The notes under the pieces are model-generated. The model searched no databases. It had not been told where the DNA came from and was given only the letters and a program-made list of their open reading frames with translations. From contig NZ_JAFYYT010000053.1 in NCBI RefSeq assembly GCF_017549005.1, positions 43,149 to 107,148 of the forward strand: a stretch of 64,000 bases of DNA, given 5' to 3'. The stretch is from Ruminococcus sp. (GTDB lineage: Bacteria > Bacillota > Clostridia > Oscillospirales > Ruminococcaceae). The translations under genes and the position numbers were made by a program. Within the stretch, counting starts at the first letter, position 1. Each line of letters opens with the position of its first letter. Shown here one piece after another: positions 47,484-55,217 of the stretch.

Positions 47484-48299
47484 TCAAAATTTTCTCTCCA
47501 ATATCATATCCGCCATTTTCTCAGCCGCAGGAGAAAGCTCGTTAAAATCATGAGCGATAAGGCTTATCTCCACTTCAATATCCGGCTTGACTTTGCCTAT
47601 CACAAGGCTGTTGGGAATGCTCGACAGCATAAGCTCCGACAGCACACCTGTACCATTTCCCTGTGACACCATGTTGAGCTGTGTGCTTGCGGCATCAACG
47701 ATCATTGCGTGGGACAGGTCAATGTTTTCTTGCTCGGCGATTGAATCTCTCGCAATACGGCATAGCACAAGGTCGGTTTGCACCTTCCTGAGATCAACGC
47801 TTACCGCCTTATCACGGTTGACCGAGACCATGTGATCTTTCGTCAGAACTCTGTGCTGTAAGCCGAGATAGGGCGATGTGCTTATGCCTATATCAGCCTT
47901 GTAATCAAGCACCATATTTTTCACTTCAAGGGGATTGCTTTCCAGCAGCTCTACCTTTACATCGGGGAACTGTTTGCGGAATATTGGCGATATCCTCGGC
48001 AATATAATTGATGTTCCTATGGGTACGGCAGCGATACGAACAACACCGCCGGACAGTTCGTTTTCCTCCATAGCCGTCTGATAGAGCCTGTTTTCAAGAG
48101 CCTGCATCTGATTTGCAAGCAGCAGTATCCTTTCACCCACATCGGTGAGGATAAGGCTGCTTCTTTTGTTTCTGATGAACAGCTTCACACAAAGCTCGTC
48201 CTCTAATTTCTTCACAGCCTGACTGACAGCAGGCTGTGAGATATACAGCTTTTTTGCGGCTTCGGTCAGACTGCCTTTTCTGCTCTCGGAAGCAAGTGC
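47484..48299 (-). pseudogene. LysR-type regulator lacking its N-terminus
   Basis: The substrate-binding domain is complete to the stop at 47484, and upstream of the first Met (48215) the frame continues through ESRKGSLTEAAKKLYISQPAVSQAVKKLEDE, the helix-turn-helix of a LysR protein, to about 48299. There the sequence switches to a fragment of another gene (Lon) in a different frame, so the first ~12 residues and any start codon or promoter are missing. ATG 48215 would give a protein without a DNA-binding domain. Confidence 0.75.
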
Positions 48300-48401: not shown

Positions 48402-49256
48402 TCACTTTTCAGCTATACCGTCCAGCACTTCCTGAATATCCCCATTGATACAGATGCTTTGCTCCTGTATCTCATCGGGAACATAGGCTTCACCGAAATT
48501 CACGCAGGCATAGACAGCTTTCGGATTTGCATAGGTCATCTTCCAGAAGGGATATTTAATGATGACGGGCGTGTTCATGCCGACGCCGAGTTCAAGGAAC
48601 AGGATATGCTGTCCGTTGTGGCTGTCGAGGAAATCATGATAACGCTCAGCAGCTTTGTGCCAGCCCTCATCCTCGACAAAGGTATCATCTGCACGAAGGT
48701 TCATGCTCATAGGCTTTCCGCAGACGGGACAGTGCGGTATCAGCTCGGTGGGGATACGCATATCTTTCTGCTGTTCAAACATTGCCCTGACTGTTTCCTT
48801 GTTGTCGTAGGTCTTTTGGTGACACGGTTCACTGCACTGCCACAAGCCGTAATCGCCCTGCGTGTAAAACAATCGGCTCTTGTCAAATCCTGCCTTTTGA
48901 AACTGATGATCGACATTCGTGGTCAGCACGAAATAGTCTTTGTCCTTCACAAGCTCAAACAGCCGCTTGTATGTGCCGTTGTCTGCGTCCATGTAGCGGT
49001 TGATGTAAATGTAGCGTGACCAGTATGCCCACTGTTCTTCAAGTGTCGGGAACGGATAAAAACCGCCGGAATACATATCCCTGAAGCCGTATTTTTCAAC
49101 GAAATCGGCAAAGTATTTCTGCAAACGCTCTCCCGAATAGGTAAAGCCTGCTGCTGTGGAAAGTCCTGCACCAGCACCAATTATAATAGCATCAGCAGTC
49201 TGTATTTCTTTTCTCAGGCGTTCAATTTCTGCCGAGTAATCCTTTGTATATCTCAT
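48402..49256 (-). CDS. class M sirtuin (SirTM), protein ADP-ribosyltransferase
   Basis: 284 residues from ATG 49256, six bases after AGGAGG. Sirtuin Rossmann motifs GAGAGLS (27-33) and TTNVD (112-116); zinc cysteines C-x3-C (about 141-145) and C-P-V-C (about 187-190). The histidine of deacetylase sirtuins (H-G) is replaced by Gln in YTQGDYG (Q133), the hallmark of class M sirtuins, which ADP-ribosylate lipoylated GcvH-L in Staphylococcus and Streptococcus (Rack and co-workers). The gene overlaps the macrodomain gene by 35 bases, as in those operons, but no gcvH-L or lplA2 is present here. Target protein therefore unknown. Confidence 0.9.
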   Translation of the reverse strand: MRYTKDYSAEIERLRKEIQTADAIIIGAGAGLSTAAGFTYSGERLQKYFADFVEKYGFRDMYSGGFYPFPTLEEQWAYWSRYIYINRYMDADNGTYKRLFELVKDKDYFVLTTNVDHQFQKAGFDKSRLFYTQGDYGLWQCSEPCHQKTYDNKETVRAMFEQQKDMRIPTELIPHCPVCGKPMSMNLRADDTFVEDEGWHKAAERYHDFLDSHNGQHILFLELGVGMNTPVIIKYPFWKMTYANPKAVYACVNFGEAYVPDEIQEQSICINGDIQEVLDGIAEK

Positions 49257-49989
49257 AATCGTCCTCCTTGAACACGTTGAAAACAACCTGTATATCGTGT
49301 TTCTGACGATATTCTCTTACTGTTCGGGCAGCGATCTCCGCCGCTTCTTTCTGCGGAAAACCGAATACTCCTGTTGAGATACAGCAGAATGCAATACTGC
49401 CGATTCCGTTCTGTACAGCAACATCAAGACAGCTTTTGTAGGAGCTTTCAAGCAGCCTGCAATGCTCCTCGGTGAGCTGTCCCTGAACGATCGGTCCGAC
49501 GGTATGTATTACATAGTCGCAGGGCAAGTTATATGCTTTCGTGATCTTTGCCTGTCCGGTCGGTTCTTCGTGTCCCTGCTTTTCCATAAGCTGACCGCAT
49601 TCGTACCGGAGCCGAACGCCAGCAAAGGTGTGTATGCAGTTGTCGATACAGCTATGGCACGGCTGCCAGCAACCTGTCATTCCGGAGTTGGCGGCATTAA
49701 CGATCGCTCCGCATTTCAGCGTGGTAATATCGCCCTGCCAGAGATAAACACCGTCCTCTATGAGCGTTAAGTCCGCAATATCGGTGATGCCTTTGCTTTC
49801 GGTCAGCTCTCGCAGATACTCGTCCTCCGTCTGCAGAAAGCTGTCATCTGCTTTCACCGCAGGACGGATATTCACAAGGCTTCTGTAAAGTCGGAACTTG
49901 TCGTTGTTATTATCGGGAATACGGATATCGCCCACATCTTTTCTTTCCGAAAGAAGATAGTCTATCAGAAAATCGAGTTTGTTTGTCAT
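49222..49989 (-). CDS. zinc-containing macrodomain, protein-ADP-ribose hydrolase
   Basis: 255 residues. Helical N-terminal extension (1-75), then a macrodomain: VYLWQGDITTLKCGAIVNAANSGMTGCWQPCHSCIDNCIH (about 81-120), with the Cys/His cluster that binds zinc in the SirTM-associated macrodomains; YVIHTVGPI (about 160) and CCISTGVFGFPQKEAAEIA (about 197-215) complete the ADP-ribose pocket. It should reverse the modification made by the sirtuin encoded next. Four bases or so after the PNPOx/ferredoxin gene stop, so tightly coupled. Confidence 0.92.
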   Translation of the reverse strand: MTNKLDFLIDYLLSERKDVGDIRIPDNNNDKFRLYRSLVNIRPAVKADDSFLQTEDEYLRELTESKGITDIADLTLIEDGVYLWQGDITTLKCGAIVNAANSGMTGCWQPCHSCIDNCIHTFAGVRLRYECGQLMEKQGHEEPTGQAKITKAYNLPCDYVIHTVGPIVQGQLTEEHCRLLESSYKSCLDVAVQNGIGSIAFCCISTGVFGFPQKEAAEIAARTVREYRQKHDIQVVFNVFKEDDYEIYKGLLGRN

Positions 49990-49993
49990 ACGA

Positions 49994-50611
49994 TCACCTC
50001 TTTACAACAGCACCTACGGGACATATCGCCTCACAGTTTCCGCAGTGCAGACAGTTTTCCTGCCTGATAACAGCCTTTTCCATCAGGGCAATACAGTTTT
50101 GCGGACAATCTGCAAGGCATGAACCGCAGGCGATACAATCATCGGTCACGAAATATCCGCTTGCTTTATTCTCAGCACCGCCGAATATGAAGCTGTCACG
50201 CTCTATGGGTTTCTTGGAAAGATCGAACCATTCTCCGCTGCCTTCATATATCTGGAAGACAGTCAGAGCCTTCCGGCTTTCTTCGGTCGGATATATTTCA
50301 AGCATATACGGATTTTTTTCAAACAGCAGTGGGAGCATATCCTGTCCAATCTCTCTGACTTTGCCACGAACAGAAACGGCGGTACAGCTCATGGTATCCT
50401 CGCCCTTTTTGCCCGATAATGCAAGATAGCTCTTATCCTTTAACCGCTGATAGAAGTTCTTACCCTTTGCAGTGAGGAAGTACAGACCGTTTTCATCGGC
50501 GTACATCATATCTATCACGCAGGTCACGGGCAAGCAGTCCTCGTCCACGGTCGCAATTACGGTGGAGTGTATCTGCTCCACGATGAATGCGAGATAATCT
50601 TTCACTGTCAT
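49994..50611 (-). CDS. PNPOx-fold flavoprotein fused to a 2x[4Fe-4S] ferredoxin
   Basis: 205 residues. N-terminal pyridoxamine-5'-phosphate-oxidase-like split barrel (1-145; STVIATVDEDCLPVTCVIDMMYA, GLYFLTAKGKNFYQRLKD), which binds FMN in most relatives. C-terminal bacterial ferredoxin with two complete C-x2-C-x2-C-x3-C motifs: CIACGSCLADCP (about 155) and CLHCGNCEAICP (about 185). Such fusions are thought to move electrons between ferredoxin and flavin. It is sandwiched between the Rrf2 regulator and the macrodomain in one operon, making it a candidate partner or target of ADP-ribosylation; that is speculation. Confidence 0.9.
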   Translation of the reverse strand: MTVKDYLAFIVEQIHSTVIATVDEDCLPVTCVIDMMYADENGLYFLTAKGKNFYQRLKDKSYLALSGKKGEDTMSCTAVSVRGKVREIGQDMLPLLFEKNPYMLEIYPTEESRKALTVFQIYEGSGEWFDLSKKPIERDSFIFGGAENKASGYFVTDDCIACGSCLADCPQNCIALMEKAVIRQENCLHCGNCEAICPVGAVVKR

Positions 50612-50630
50612 AACATCACCCTCTATGGAA

Positions 50631-50657
50631 AGAGTGTGCTGGGTTTCAGCACACTCT
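50631..50657 (-). terminator. hairpin between rrf2 and the PNPOx/ferredoxin gene
   Basis: AGAGTGTGCTG (50631-50641) / CAGCACACTCT (50647-50657) with loop GGTTT; only a short T-run on the minus strand. Partial terminator or processing site inside the operon. Confidence 0.55.
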
Positions 50658-50662
50658 TATGT

Positions 50663-51100
50663 TTATTCTTCTTCGATGATCTTCTTGGTATCGGCAACGA
50701 TCTCTGCAAGCGTAGTCTTTTTCAACTCATTTTCAAGAGCCGACTGAGCCGCTTCAAGTCTGCCGTCCATGACCTTATGTATATTCCGTCCCACGGGGCA
50801 TTTCGCATTGGGGTTCTCATGAAAGCGGAAGAGTCCGTCATCGTCCGTGCATTCTACAGCTCTGTAAACATCATACAGCGTGATCTCGCTTGTGGGCTTG
50901 GCAAGGTGTGCGCCGCCGCTGCCCTGACGAGTTTCTACGATTCCTGCCTCACGGAGCTGTCCGAGGACATTGCGGACGATCACCGCATTCACGCCCGTAC
51001 TGCCCGAAAGGAAATCGCTCGTTACACGCATCTCACCGTCGAAAACCTCGATACAGGTGAGGATATGAACTGCCGCTGTAAATTTACTTGTAATCTGCAC
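50663..51100 (-). CDS. Rrf2-family regulator (YwnA-like)
   Basis: 145 residues. Winged helix with KFTAAVHILTCIEVF, VTSDFLSGSTGVNAVIVRNVLGQLREAGIVETRQGSGGAHLAK (about 25-68), the Rrf2 wing. Only one cysteine follows (NAKCPVG, about 100), so it lacks the three-Cys iron-sulfur cluster of IscR/NsrR; it fits the YwnA/SaiR-type group that may sense thiol oxidation or electrophiles. Second gene of the operon starting with a YwnB-like protein, the same pairing as ywnA-ywnB in Bacillus subtilis. Confidence 0.9.
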   Translation of the reverse strand: MQITSKFTAAVHILTCIEVFDGEMRVTSDFLSGSTGVNAVIVRNVLGQLREAGIVETRQGSGGAHLAKPTSEITLYDVYRAVECTDDDGLFRFHENPNAKCPVGRNIHKVMDGRLEAAQSALENELKKTTLAEIVADTKKIIEEE

Positions 51101-51117
51101 GAATGATCATCTCTTTC

Positions 51118-51747
51118 TTATTCTCTAACTACGCTGATGCGCTGACCAATGTGACCGCCTTTTTCAATCTCGTCAACCATAGCAACTGCATAGTCTGCAT
51201 AGCTGATAATGCTCTCGCCCTTGCTGTTGAGAGTAAGTTCTTCGCCTGCAAGGATGTATTTGCCTGTGCGTTCGCCGTCAGCCTGAAAATCTCCTGCGGG
51301 GCTGATGTAAGTCCACTTGACATCATTACGCTCACGGAGTTCGCCCAGAGCTTTAGCCATAGCAGCCGCAAGGGGCTTGAAGATCTCAGGGAAATCAGCA
51401 CCGTCAGAAACGCAGGCGGTATGCTCGGCATTCACATAAAGACTTCCTGCACCGCCGACAACGAGCAGTCTTGTATCCGTTCCCGAAAGAACATCACAGA
51501 TGTGTTTCAGAGAAGTGGAGTGCTGACCGAGCGTTTCGGGAGTCCATGCACCGAATGCGTCCACAACTGCGTCGAAGCCTGCGAGGTCAGCCGCTGTCAG
51601 ATCGAACAGGTCTTTTACGATAGCATTCTGCGCTGCGGACTTGTTCTCGCCTTTGACAACTGCGGTAACGTCGAATCCTCTGTTTACAGCCTCTTTAACG
51701 ATGAGCTGTCCTGCCTTGCCGTTTGCACAAATAACTGCGATTTTCAT
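51118..51747 (-). CDS. NAD(P)-binding atypical SDR (YwnB-like)
   Basis: 209 residues. Rossmann start MKIAVICANGKAGQLIVKEAVNRGFDV with the G-x-x-G-x-x-G variant N-G-K-A-G-Q, then VVDAFGAWTPET (about 84) and VVGGAGSLYVN (about 115). Belongs to the NmrA/flavin-reductase-like atypical SDR group lacking the YxxxK pair in usual form. First gene of the five-gene operon ywnB - rrf2 - PNPOx/Fd - macro - sirTM. Confidence 0.87.
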   Translation of the reverse strand: MKIAVICANGKAGQLIVKEAVNRGFDVTAVVKGENKSAAQNAIVKDLFDLTAADLAGFDAVVDAFGAWTPETLGQHSTSLKHICDVLSGTDTRLLVVGGAGSLYVNAEHTACVSDGADFPEIFKPLAAAMAKALGELRERNDVKWTYISPAGDFQADGERTGKYILAGEELTLNSKGESIISYADYAVAMVDEIEKGGHIGQRISVVRE

Positions 51748-51789
51748 AGTGAATACCTCCTAAAGTATAACATAAATGTGGGTTTCTGT

Positions 51790-51873
51790 AAAGTTGTAAC
51801 ATCGTTTGTTTCAACTTTCTGACATTAGTATATCACAAGAACTGAAAGTTGTCAATATTATTATTACAACTTT
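51790..51873 (-). promoter_or_regulatory. operon promoter with Rrf2-type half-sites
   Basis: Minus-strand TTGACA (51850-51855), 17 bases, TATACT (51837-51842) with TG extension. Four copies of a half-site surround it: AAAGTTGT (51790-51797), CAACTTT (51822-51828), AAAGTTGT (51845-51852) and ACAACTTT (51866-51873). The inner pair overlaps -35. Probable sites for the Rrf2 protein. Confidence 0.7.
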
Positions 51874-51920
51874 GACGAAGTGCATATAATTTCATGAGAT
51901 TTATGCGCTTATTAAACAAA

Positions 51921-51943
51921 AAAGGAGCGCATTGCTCCTTTTC
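51921..51943 (-). terminator. terminator of tetR (51945-52526)
   Basis: AAAAGGAGC / GCTCCTTTT stem with GCATT loop, then T6 on the minus strand. Confidence 0.8.
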
Positions 51944-52697: not shown

Positions 52698-53336
52698 ATG
52701 AAAACAATCATTATCAACGCAAGTCCGAGAAAAAACTGGAATACGGCACAGCTCCTGAAAGAAGCACAGAGGGGAGCTGAATCCGTCGGCGCAGAAACAG
52801 AGTATATCGACATCTTTGACCTGACCTTTACGGGATGCCGTTCATGTCTCGCCTGTAAACGGAAGGGGGCGGAGCGCAATAAGTGCTATTGGAAAGATGA
52901 CCTTTCTCCGTTGATTGAAAAGATTCTCGCAGCCGATGCAGTCATTATCGGTTCTCCGATCTACTTTGGTCAGCCTACCGCTTCTTTCCGTGCATTGTGG
53001 GAACGCCTTGCATTCCCCGTGCTTTCCTATGACGGTCAACCGATAAGCTACTATGACAGCAAGCTGAATGTCGGCTTTATCTGGACGATGAATGCAACTC
53101 CCGAATATTATGAAAACGGCTTGAAGCCCACGCTTGCAGTTACCGAAAATACCGCTCCGATGTTCTTCCACGGCGAGGTAAGGTCTTATGCGGCACTCGA
53201 CACTTTGCAGGTCAGCGATTACAGCAAATACAGTATGGGTGCATTCGATGAGCAGGCGAAGAAACAGCGCCATGATACACAATTCCCGATAGATATGCAG
53301 GAATGTTTCAGGATGGGAGCTGATTTCAGCAGATGA
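52698..53336 (+). CDS. flavodoxin-fold NAD(P)H reductase with Cys motif
   Basis: 212 residues. MKTIIINASPRKNWNTAQLLKEAQ (phosphate loop), GCRSCLACKRKGAERNKCYWKDD (about 47-68) with a C-x-x-C-x-x-C / C cluster, AVIIGSPIYFGQPTASFRALWERL (about 82-105) flavin contact. Quinone/nitro reductase or iron-sulfur flavoprotein family. First gene of a four-gene rightward operon; overlaps the next start by four bases. Confidence 0.88.
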   Translation: MKTIIINASPRKNWNTAQLLKEAQRGAESVGAETEYIDIFDLTFTGCRSCLACKRKGAERNKCYWKDDLSPLIEKILAADAVIIGSPIYFGQPTASFRALWERLAFPVLSYDGQPISYYDSKLNVGFIWTMNATPEYYENGLKPTLAVTENTAPMFFHGEVRSYAALDTLQVSDYSKYSMGAFDEQAKKQRHDTQFPIDMQECFRMGADFSR

Positions 53337-53848
53337 AAAAGATTCTGATACTCAACGGCTCTCCCCACAAAAACGGCAGTACGGCTTCACTCGTAAAAGC
53401 GTTTACCGAAGGCGCAGAAAGCACAGGCAACGAGGTCAGTGAGCTTTATTTGCAGAGCATGAATATCGGTGGTTGTCTTGCCTGTGAAGCTTGCAGCAGG
53501 AACGGCGGACAGTGTGTTCAGAAAGACGATATGGAAAAGGTAAATGAAGCCTATCTGTGGGCTGATGTGATCGTGTTTGCTTCTCCTATGTACTGGGGTA
53601 CGGTCAGTGGACAGCTCAAAGTCTGTATCGACAGGCTCTATGCGCTCCAGAACCGCATTGGCTATGCAGATATGTCTAAGCAGTATAAAGAAACGGCTTT
53701 TATCATGACTGCTCGGGGCGGATACTATAAGCAAGCACTTGATTTTTATCACATTTTCACCGATGTTATGGGCTGGAAGAACTGGGGTACTGTCCTTGGA
53801 AAGGGCAAGGAAGATGAAGCCCGAAAACTAGGTGCATCTATCCACTGA
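53333..53848 (+). CDS. flavodoxin-fold NAD(P)H reductase with Cys motif
   Basis: 171 residues. MKKILILNGSPHKNGSTASLVKAF (phosphate loop) and GGCLACEACSRNGGQCVQKDDM (about 46-67) with the same cysteine pattern; VIVFASPMYWGTVSGQLKVCIDRL (about 79-102). A paralogue of the preceding gene, though not a recent tandem copy. Coupled by a four-base overlap. Confidence 0.9.
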   Translation: MKKILILNGSPHKNGSTASLVKAFTEGAESTGNEVSELYLQSMNIGGCLACEACSRNGGQCVQKDDMEKVNEAYLWADVIVFASPMYWGTVSGQLKVCIDRLYALQNRIGYADMSKQYKETAFIMTARGGYYKQALDFYHIFTDVMGWKNWGTVLGKGKEDEARKLGASIH

Positions 53849-53862
53849 AAGGAGAAATGACT

Positions 53863-54381
53863 ATGTTTAACAATTTTTTGGAGCTTGCCGAAGCAAGGTA
53901 TTCAGTCAGACAGTATTCGGACAAACCGATAGAACAGGAAAAGCTCGACCGTATCCTCCGTGCAGGACAGGTCGCTCCGACTGCCATGAACGCTCAGCCA
54001 CAGCGGATATTGGTTCTGAAAAGCAATGAAGCGGTAGCAAAGATCAGAACGCTGACACGATTTCACTTCAATGCACCGATGTATCTTTTGATCTGTGCGA
54101 ATACAGCAGAATCCTATAAAGCGGTAGACGGTAATGATTCGGCAGAAGTCGATACCGCAATCGTCACAACACATATGATGATGCAGGCGTTTGATGAGGG
54201 TATCGGCACTTGCTGGGTGCGAGGATTTGATGCAAATATGGTATCGGCTGCATTCGGACTTCCGGAGCATATAGAGCCTGTTGCATTACTGCCGATCGGC
54301 TATCCCGCAGAAGATGCAAAGCCCTATCCGGGCGCACATGAAAAACGCAAGCCCATAACAGAAACCGTCAAATATCTTTAA
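53863..54381 (+). CDS. nitroreductase-family protein
   Basis: 172 residues from ATG 53863, eight bases after AGGAG; ATG 53857 would be only two bases away. ELAEARYSVRQYSDKPIEQEKLDRILRAGQVAPTAMNAQPQRILVL (about 5-50) is the FMN-binding start of nitroreductases with R-x-S-V-R and A-P-T-A-x-N-x-Q-P. A shorter class B type protein; FMN-dependent NAD(P)H reductase of nitro compounds, quinones or enones. Confidence 0.93.
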   Translation: MFNNFLELAEARYSVRQYSDKPIEQEKLDRILRAGQVAPTAMNAQPQRILVLKSNEAVAKIRTLTRFHFNAPMYLLICANTAESYKAVDGNDSAEVDTAIVTTHMMMQAFDEGIGTCWVRGFDANMVSAAFGLPEHIEPVALLPIGYPAEDAKPYPGAHEKRKPITETVKYL

Positions 54382-54398
54382 TACAGGAGGTAACCACT

Positions 54399-55217
54399 AT
54401 GAACATTATGATAACAGGAGCCGCAGGAGGATACGGCAGCTATGCGATCAATTTCTTAAAGGAGTTCGCTCCGAATGACAACATTATCGCCCTTGTGCGT
54501 GATAACGGCAAAAAAGCCGACCTCGAAGCAAAGGGCTTTGAAGTCCGTGTGGCTGATTATTCCGATCTGTCGGGAATGACAAAGGCTATGGAAGGTGTTG
54601 ACCGTCTGCTGTTTGTTTCCGTTCCCGTATTCGATCTGCAAAAGAATGTGGTCGAAGCAGCAAAGGCAAGCGGTGTGAAATATATCGCCTACACAAGTAT
54701 CTGCGAACCGCAGTATCATAAATTCGGTTTGGAGATCAATCACAAGCAGACCGAGGAGCTTATCCGTCAGACAGGCATTCCCCATACATTCCTGCGTAAT
54801 GGCTGGTATCTGGAAATGATGATGCCCTATCTTGAAGCAAGTGCTAAAATGGGCGCTTTTCCGTACTATGCAGGAGATGCTAAGGTGGCTTGAGCAGCAA
54901 AGCGTGACCTTGCCGAAGCAGGTGCAAGAGTGATCGCTTACGGCTGTGATGAGGAGATACTGGAGCTTTCGGGCAATGCCGTGACCTATGCAGAGCTTGC
55001 AAGATCTTCGGGAAAGGATATGGAGATCAAGCCTGTCAGCCGCAATGAATTTATGGCTGTTATGGCAAGATCGGGTATCCCGCAGATGGGAATGATGCTC
55101 GCCCAGAGTTATCAGGACTATGCGGTCCAGGGCAGCAATGGCGAGGAAAAGCTGACCTCTGCCGTGCTTGAAAAGGTCATCGGACATAAACTGTTGACGG
55201 CAGCGGAGATGATATAA
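54399..55217 (+). pseudogene. NmrA-like NAD(P)-binding protein with a nonsense codon
   Basis: 272 codons from ATG 54399 (AGGAGG upstream). Rossmann start MNIMITGAAGGYGSYAIN; then VDRLLFVSVPVFDLQ, KYIAYTSICEPQ and TGIPHTFLRNGWYLEMMMPYL, as in NmrA/quinone-oxidoreductase (QOR2)-type proteins. The frame is stopped by TGA at 54891-54893 between AKVA and AAKRDLAEAGARV; where relatives have Trp, one base change (TGG to TGA) explains it. The rest continues intact to 55217 (LSGNAVTYAELARSSGKD, LTAAEMI). Either a recent null allele or a sequencing error; a GTG at 54930 could restart only the C-terminal part. Confidence 0.85.

Follow-up and report, generated by a model that had tools for sequence, protein, structure and literature searches.

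A sirtuin–macrodomain pair joined to an Rrf2 regulator and a ferredoxin-type fusion protein in a Ruminococcus operon

Closest described systems and the five operon proteins

In Staphylococcaceae and Lactobacillales, the class M sirtuin SirTM is encoded in an extended operon together with GcvH-L, a zinc macrodomain protein (Zn-Macro), LplA2, OYE and LLM (PMC4518038). The authors of PMC11490716 knew, in 2024, of no SirTM target other than GcvH-L and called the targets of other SirTM/Zn-Macro systems elusive; the same source reports that the Zn-Macro family removes ADP-ribose from proteins, and cites Zn-Macros as able to cut S-linked ADP-ribose. It also deals with minimal Zn-Macro/SirTM pairs without GcvH-L, among which MorMacro (PDB 8rsi) is the one Zn-Macro reported as tested on GcvH-L; neither MorMacro nor the Zn-Macros of fusion proteins demodified GcvH-L in the experiments described there. 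A further point of comparison is the ywnAB/SifR regulon of B. subtilis and S. pneumoniae, in which ywnB is under the control of SifR, a quinone sensor of the one-thiol type that binds TGTAA-N9-TTACA, and the pneumococcal YwnB (PDB 4r01) is an NAD(P)H quinone reductase (PMC9218516). Here we analyse a 64,000-nucleotide stretch of the Ruminococcus sp. assembly GCF_017549005.1 (contig NZ_JAFYYT010000053.1, positions 43,149 to 107,148; hereafter the window), in which a minus-strand operon of five genes encodes a YwnB-like reductase (NADb), an Rrf2 repressor, a fusion of a PNPOx-like split barrel with a two-cluster ferredoxin (Fus), a Zn-Macro and a SirTM (table 1).

This operon shares with the extended SirTM operon the adjacent Zn-Macro and QG-type SirTM, nearby flavin oxidoreductases and an oxidative-stress theme, but differs from it in carrying YwnB, a YwnA/SifR-type Rrf2 protein and Fus, whereas GcvH-L, LplA2, OYE and LLM are not in the operon. 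Like the minimal pair of PMC11490716, it combines a writer and an eraser without GcvH-L; unlike that pair, the two genes stand at the end of an operon of five genes that also encodes a sensor and redox enzymes. The one-cysteine Rrf2 protein, the TGTAA-N9-TTACA operator and the YwnB quinone reductase recall the ywnAB/SifR regulon (PMC9218516), from which the operon departs in that these elements are joined to Fus and the ADP-ribosylation pair, and in that perfect 29-bp dyads, two in number, occur in the genome at this promoter only. We regard the operon type as a known writer/eraser pair in a new gene setting (own sensor, YwnB and Fus). No description of it was found in the open literature on macrodomains with Rrf2 or on SirTM with ferredoxin, as judged without full texts.

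All five open reading frames (ORFs) and the protein identities proposed in an initial annotation were confirmed by domain and structure searches, with 4, 17 or 51 bp between neighbours and, in one case, an overlap of 35 bp. In SirTM, QG replaces HG at the catalytic site (FYTQGDYG), and Q133-G134 and N114-x-D116 are invariant in 17/17 aligned sequences; its structural match 5a3a is a PDB entry belonging to PMC4518038. Residues 4–253 of the Zn-Macro align to residues 8–260 of 8rsi, with the zinc loop GC-x4-H-x-CIDN conserved and the N-terminal part included, and the closest solved Zn-Macro is MorMacro, narrowly before SauMacro (5kiv). The 35-bp overlap links the SirTM and Zn-Macro genes, and a macro gene lies upstream of SirTM in 66 of 70 loci from the family of the window genome. 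By family membership, SirTM would be a writer of protein ADP-ribosylation and Zn-Macro its eraser. A phage-defence reading was rejected, as no PADLOC family matched SirTM or Zn-Macro and Fus gave only a weak ferredoxin match; a search of viral contigs found no close relative of Fus.

Fus matches Fer4 and, at 25.2 bits (below the cut-off of 28.1), PNPOx_N; its family profile matches the PNPOx-related structure 2hhz (1.5e-28) and 2[4Fe-4S] ferredoxins, and the eight cluster cysteines are invariant in 28/28 aligned sequences. We infer that Fus binds FMN. Among its nearest relatives (85–90% identity), most carry the label Ruminococcus, and several that of R. flavefaciens.

Linkage of Fus and SirTM across genomes

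We surveyed 297 genomes of the family, 80 of which contain a canonical SirTM (E up to 1e-15), some copies being fragments or broken; this number is obtained from 86 by removing five genomes with divergent copies only (G127, G137, G207, G258 and G261) and one with a weak match (G187). Fus, counted as present at 100 bits or more among at most 10 candidates scored per genome, so that a few may have been missed, was found in 42/80 SirTM genomes vs 8/217 without SirTM (50/297 overall), with a Fisher p of 6e-21 that is overstated because the genomes are related. The 42 genomes span 34 genera, as counted by eye. When loci with at least 1.5 kb upstream were compared (6 of 76 family and 1 of 18 outside-family loci being dropped), in 35 of the 70 family loci the Fus gene preceded SirTM, its end at most 900 bp away, with Zn-Macro in between except in L098, a short contig; this makes Fus the commonest recognised gene just upstream of the Macro-SirTM pair.

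The linkage was also examined in reverse, starting from the best 80 of at least 587 Fus relatives in a public genome collection that partly overlaps the 297 genomes. A SirTM gene lay on the same strand within 3.5 kb in 61 of these loci, and 14 were on cut contigs; by a stricter rule of order and spacing, Fus-Macro-SirTM was found in 41 of the 69 loci having 1.5 kb downstream. Fus precedes SirTM with a macro match nearby in 47 of the 61 linked loci (in a few, a further gene is inserted or the macro match is weak or displaced), the other layouts being Fus-SirTM without macro (7), SirTM-Fus without macro (4) and Macro-SirTM-Fus (3). This tally is to be read with some care: SirTM runs off the contig in L281 and L283, where an upstream macro is possible, it is broken or partial in L231 and L257, L273 ends soon after it, L255 has macro matches elsewhere on its stretch, and a 322-aa ORF separates Macro from SirTM in L263 and L267. 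Clean macro-free operons are L238, L274 and L301 (Fus-SirTM) and L251 and L260 (SirTM-Fus), and a single outside-family locus, L209, shows Fus-SirTM-Macro. In seven loci, the SirTM and Fus genes share 4 bp (L251, L260, L263, L267, L271, L281 and L283). Neighbours that stay together through changes of order are usually functionally tied. Among the ORFs of the scanned loci, none fused Fus to SirTM or Zn-Macro in one protein.

In a tree of 96 Fus rows, taken as alternate entries of the public-collection set, the window protein belongs to a clade of 69 rows (SH-aLRT 98) and the Fus proteins of the ACGX operons described below to one of 21 rows (SH-aLRT 100); the two clades lie far apart and both are SirTM-linked, SirTM-free relatives adjoin each of them, and the deepest forks are weak (74). 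At the level of the phylum, SirTM was found in 25/398 genomes, two from the family itself, and in a sample of 20 stretches, not every match being taken, Fus lay close upstream in 4 of the 17 loci with enough flank, two of them ACGX operons. The proposal of a conserved operon type without GcvH was thus borne out, the neighbourhood being clearly conserved among relatives, and its redox theme was likewise supported. The further claim, that Fus takes the position of GcvH-L, is only partly true, because other loci place Fus downstream of SirTM or immediately next to it.

In part of the relatives, the operon takes another form, with a regulator of the HxlR type, an ACGX-repeat peptide (TIGR04341), the radical SAM/SPASM protein rSAM_ACGX (TIGR04340), a nitroreductase or zinc-type alcohol dehydrogenase, and then Fus (of a clade of its own), Zn-Macro and SirTM (L066, L074, L079, L085, L103, L117 and L119, among others). 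HxlR is usually divergent in these operons and is replaced by Rrf2 in L090. The L117 copy of rSAM_ACGX scores 602 bits (cut-off 400). This protein occurs in 23/297 genomes (E up to 1e-100), 22 of which contain SirTM (p 5e-13), and the distance between rSAM and SirTM is at most 5 kb in 16 of 24 rSAM loci. The ACGX system was not found in the window genome, where the best TIGR04340 match reaches 91.8 bits. No paper naming the system, and none treating macrodomain, sirtuin and radical SAM together, was found in the open literature, with subscription papers and preprints outside the scope; where the term ACGX does appear, it has other meanings, as judged from titles. The tie between this orphan peptide-modification system and ADP-ribosylation genes is the most surprising part of our findings.

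As a separate observation, seven genomes (G236, G127, G137, G258, G274, G261 and G207) carry SirTM-like sirtuins arrayed in tandem, two or three together, with ~32–40% identity to the window SirTM (L136–L140, L158 and L159). A divergent Rrf2 gene stands ahead of them in at least five of the seven loci, and no macrodomain is among the near neighbours listed. Complete three-sirtuin arrays have two QG copies and one EG copy with a changed N-x-D (TSNGEGHF), which is perhaps a pseudo-enzyme.

Regulator, operator and surroundings of the operon

The nearest PDB entries to the Rrf2 protein are 1ylf (4e-30) and then YwnA, 1xd7 (2e-25). The published motif of the YwnA/SifR class is HxxPNPxC (PMC9218516), from which the window sequence HENPNAKC differs by one residue. 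The CPV cysteine is kept in 59/59 Rrf2 proteins of the loci, tandem-sirtuin loci being left out, whereas Cys16 and Cys84 are less conserved (49/59 and 27/59). Eight copies of AAAGTTG/CAACTTT occur in the 64 kb, four of them within 84 bp at the operon promoter, where they form two perfect AAAGTTG-N15-CAACTTT dyads that have no perfect counterpart elsewhere in the 3.33-Mb assembly. The half-sites thus make up the outer arms of a pair of 29-bp dyads spaced 55 bp apart; both contain TGTAA-N9-TTACA as their core, each with one mismatch. The initial annotation had proposed Rrf2 control from the four half-sites; this is supported, and can be sharpened to the YwnA/SifR class and its TGTAA-N9-TTACA operator.

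The same signals recur in relatives. The 29-bp dyad, with up to two arm mismatches, was found in 21/66 Rrf2-associated upstream regions vs 0.7% of random 500-bp stretches, 20 of the 21 being among the 26 regions in which NADb comes first. With up to one mismatch, TGTAA-N9-TTACA was present in 50/53 regions preceding an Rrf2 gene or an NADb-Rrf2 pair, as against 3.3% of 400-bp stretches drawn at random, and without mismatch in 24/53 vs 1.0%, a contrast that is somewhat overstated because the background is mostly coding and promoters are AT-richer. Tandem-sirtuin loci and regions under 380 bp were left out of the 53, a few Rrf2 genes outside the Fus operon (L127, L131) were included, and many of the compared regions are related to each other. 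A wider Rrf2 regulon defined by the 29-bp dyad was rejected: no further perfect site exists, and the imperfect dyads elsewhere look like chance because, at two mismatches, a reversed-pattern control outnumbers the pattern (53 vs 19 per strand). The operator scan also turned up a tandem repeat elsewhere in the genome (G000:C51:158024-158286), in which six listed copies of a near-identical site are spaced by multiples of 39 bp.

An alternative regulator, a divergent HxlR protein, is found in 35 of the 70 family loci, and proteins of this type have one invariant cysteine (LPxCPV, 50/50). Thiol-based sensing of quinones is known from HxlR/DUF24 proteins such as YodB and CatR. Each type of regulator suggests a response to electrophile or disulfide stress, and a quinone or other electrophile is a more likely operon signal than iron-sulfur status because the sensor is of the YwnA/SifR one-cysteine type with a SifR/HypR operator.

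Table 1. Features of the operon and its promoter region in the window
Feature	Position	Strand	Evidence
SirTM, class M sirtuin, 284 aa, QG motif, four-Cys (zinc-like) site	48402..49256	(-)	PDB 5a3a, E 1.1e-74
Zn-Macro, protein ADP-ribose hydrolase family, 255 aa	49222..49989	(-)	NF003163 (NCBIfam), 348.7 bits (cut-off 272); PDB 8rsi/5kiv, E 1e-75/2e-72
Fus, PNPOx-like split barrel + 2x[4Fe-4S] ferredoxin fusion, 205 aa	49994..50611	(-)	Fer4; sub-threshold PNPOx_N
Rrf2 repressor, YwnA/SifR one-cysteine class, 145 aa, HENPNAKCPVG	50663..51100	(-)	PF02082, 110.7 bits
YwnB-like NAD(P)H reductase (NADb)	51118..51747	(-)	PF13460; best PDB match 4r01, E 8.3e-76
Promoter-like site 2, TTTACA-17-TATACT	51764..51792	(-)	10/12 consensus; -35 touches downstream dyad
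Downstream operator dyad, AAAGT-TGAAA-N9-TTACA-ACTTT	51790..51818	(-)	
Promoter-like site 1, TTGACA-17-TATACT	51827..51855	(-)	11/12 consensus; region has 8 sites vs 4.4 by chance
Upstream operator dyad, AAAGT-TGTAA-N9-TGACA-ACTTT	51845..51873	(-)	Overlaps -35 of promoter 1
Terminator-like hairpin after upstream TetR-family gene	51919..51943	(-)	6 sites in region vs 3.9 by chance

The terminator-like hairpin would part the operon from the upstream TetR-family gene. A second hairpin, of 13 pairs, lies between the Rrf2 and Fus genes (50630-50658); read along the operon, it lacks a following T-run, and its role may therefore lie in the processing or stability of the mRNA. Just downstream of SirTM, a LysR-family ORF (47484-48215) with most of its helix-turn-helix missing looks like a remnant or a frameshifted gene. 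On the other side of the operon, a run of redox genes (52698-55217) comprises two FMN reductases, a nitroreductase-like ORF and an NmrA-like ORF. Within it, the NmrA/NAD(P)-binding gene is probably broken, because its product stops short in ORF 54399-54893, which is directly followed by a second ORF (54930-55217).

A candidate target and the competing readings

We tentatively read the locus, with a probability of roughly 0.45, as an operon for quinone/electrophile stress that includes a reversible switch by ADP-ribosylation, with Fus as the most likely target. In unstressed cells, a YwnA/SifR-type Rrf2 dimer would sit on the two dyads and cover the promoters, as suggested by the operator match and the layout; a quinone or similar electrophile would alkylate the CPV cysteine and release the repressor, by analogy with the biochemistry of SifR. 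YwnB would then reduce quinones at the expense of NAD(P)H, as 4r01 does, and Fus, a flavin/ferredoxin protein judging from its domains, could carry ferredoxin-level electrons in the same response. SirTM would transfer ADP-ribose from NAD+ onto a target and Zn-Macro would take it off, as expected from their families; with Fus itself as the candidate target, NAD+ supply would set the amount of active Fus.

Several observations weigh against this reading, besides the overstated operator contrast mentioned above. No Fus match of 100 bits or more was found in 38/80 SirTM genomes, and because of this Fus is not a universal partner of SirTM; we consider it the leading, not a universal, candidate target. 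Conversely, SirTM is missing from five of the 80 loci of the reverse test that are visible for 3 kb both ways, Fus occurs on stretches without SirTM (L141–L154 and L156, some of them short contigs), five of these being well-visible contigs (L141 and L149–L152), and L285 has Fus-Macro with SirTM missing within 3.9 kb. The slot of Fus is elsewhere taken by rSAM/ACGX genes, a nitroreductase, a family of ~263 aa, DUF1848, a stand-alone PNPOx or nothing recognisable. Operon partners need not be enzyme and substrate, and the site of ADP-ribosylation is not readable from sequence. As to the ~263-aa family, it recurs upstream of Zn-Macro/SirTM (L070, L071, L086–L089, L091, L093, L106, L122, L126 and L132); one member, searched against Pfam, NCBIfam and PDB, gave no match, and to the eye it resembles a degenerate metallo-beta-lactamase fold.

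The SirTM genomes without Fus speak for a reading in which the electrophile-stress operon is the same, the ADP-ribosylated protein is a housekeeping or redox protein encoded elsewhere, and Fus is a parallel, co-expressed detoxifying enzyme. The variety of genes beside the Macro-SirTM pair, among which thiol-type regulators recur, goes in the same direction, and we take this to be a serious possibility. However, the Fus-SirTM adjacency survives several rearrangements and includes the 4-bp overlap in seven loci, which is tighter than shared regulation requires.

The surroundings of the operon, rich in other redox genes, could also suggest mere chromosomal clustering of electrophile-stress genes, SirTM/Zn-Macro being functionally unconnected to Fus; the gap sizes, the overlaps, the shared promoter region and the re-pairing in many genera make this improbable. 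Some sirtuin-like enzymes process NAD+, and in this operon type, too, SirTM might act on a small molecule or nucleic acid, or chiefly burn NAD+, and modify no protein. We give this little credence, as the paired Zn-Macro comes from a family shown to remove protein ADP-ribose (PMC11490716), and PADLOC defence families match neither protein.

We also looked for the lipoyl route known from Staphylococcus and Streptococcus. GcvH was counted from PF01597 matches above 70 bits; matches of ~19–28 bits cover part of the profile only, were not counted, and are presumably biotinyl-type domains. In the window genome (93.8% complete), the GcvH model, positive in 13/14 controls, detected no GcvH, and TIGR00545, a less sensitive model positive in 9/14 controls, detected no LplA. 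In agreement with the initial annotation, gcvH-L and lplA2 are not in the operon, and none was detected elsewhere in the genome either. Full-length GcvH was found in 31/297 family genomes without association with SirTM (Fisher p 0.40), in 6/80 canonical-SirTM genomes, each time away from the SirTM locus, and in none of five sampled genomes of the genus; a profile of eight family GcvH proteins, with no separate positive control, found no GcvH ORF in the scanned SirTM and Fus loci. Even though it is the sole SirTM target known to the authors of PMC11490716, a lipoylated GcvH(-L) encoded elsewhere is rejected as the target here and close to refuted, also in view of the failure of MorMacro, the closest solved relative of the window Zn-Macro, to demodify GcvH-L in that study, though SauMacro is nearly as close.

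More broadly, SirTM/Zn-Macro might be a writer/eraser module of general use in the quinone/electrophile response of bacteria, protecting thiol-rich redox carriers, namely lipoyl-GcvH-L in Bacilli, the Fus ferredoxin in the present operon type, and a radical-SAM-modified cysteine-repeat peptide or its partner Fus in the ACGX operons; we hold this generalization, taken with its carriers, to be unlikely. If it were true, the cutting of S-linked ADP-ribose by Zn-Macros, as cited in PMC11490716, would gain a native use. In anaerobic gut and rumen bacteria, these operons offer a candidate target (Fus), an inducer class (quinones/electrophiles) and an unexpected partner (ACGX), and they make the question of what non-GcvH SirTMs modify directly testable with purified proteins.

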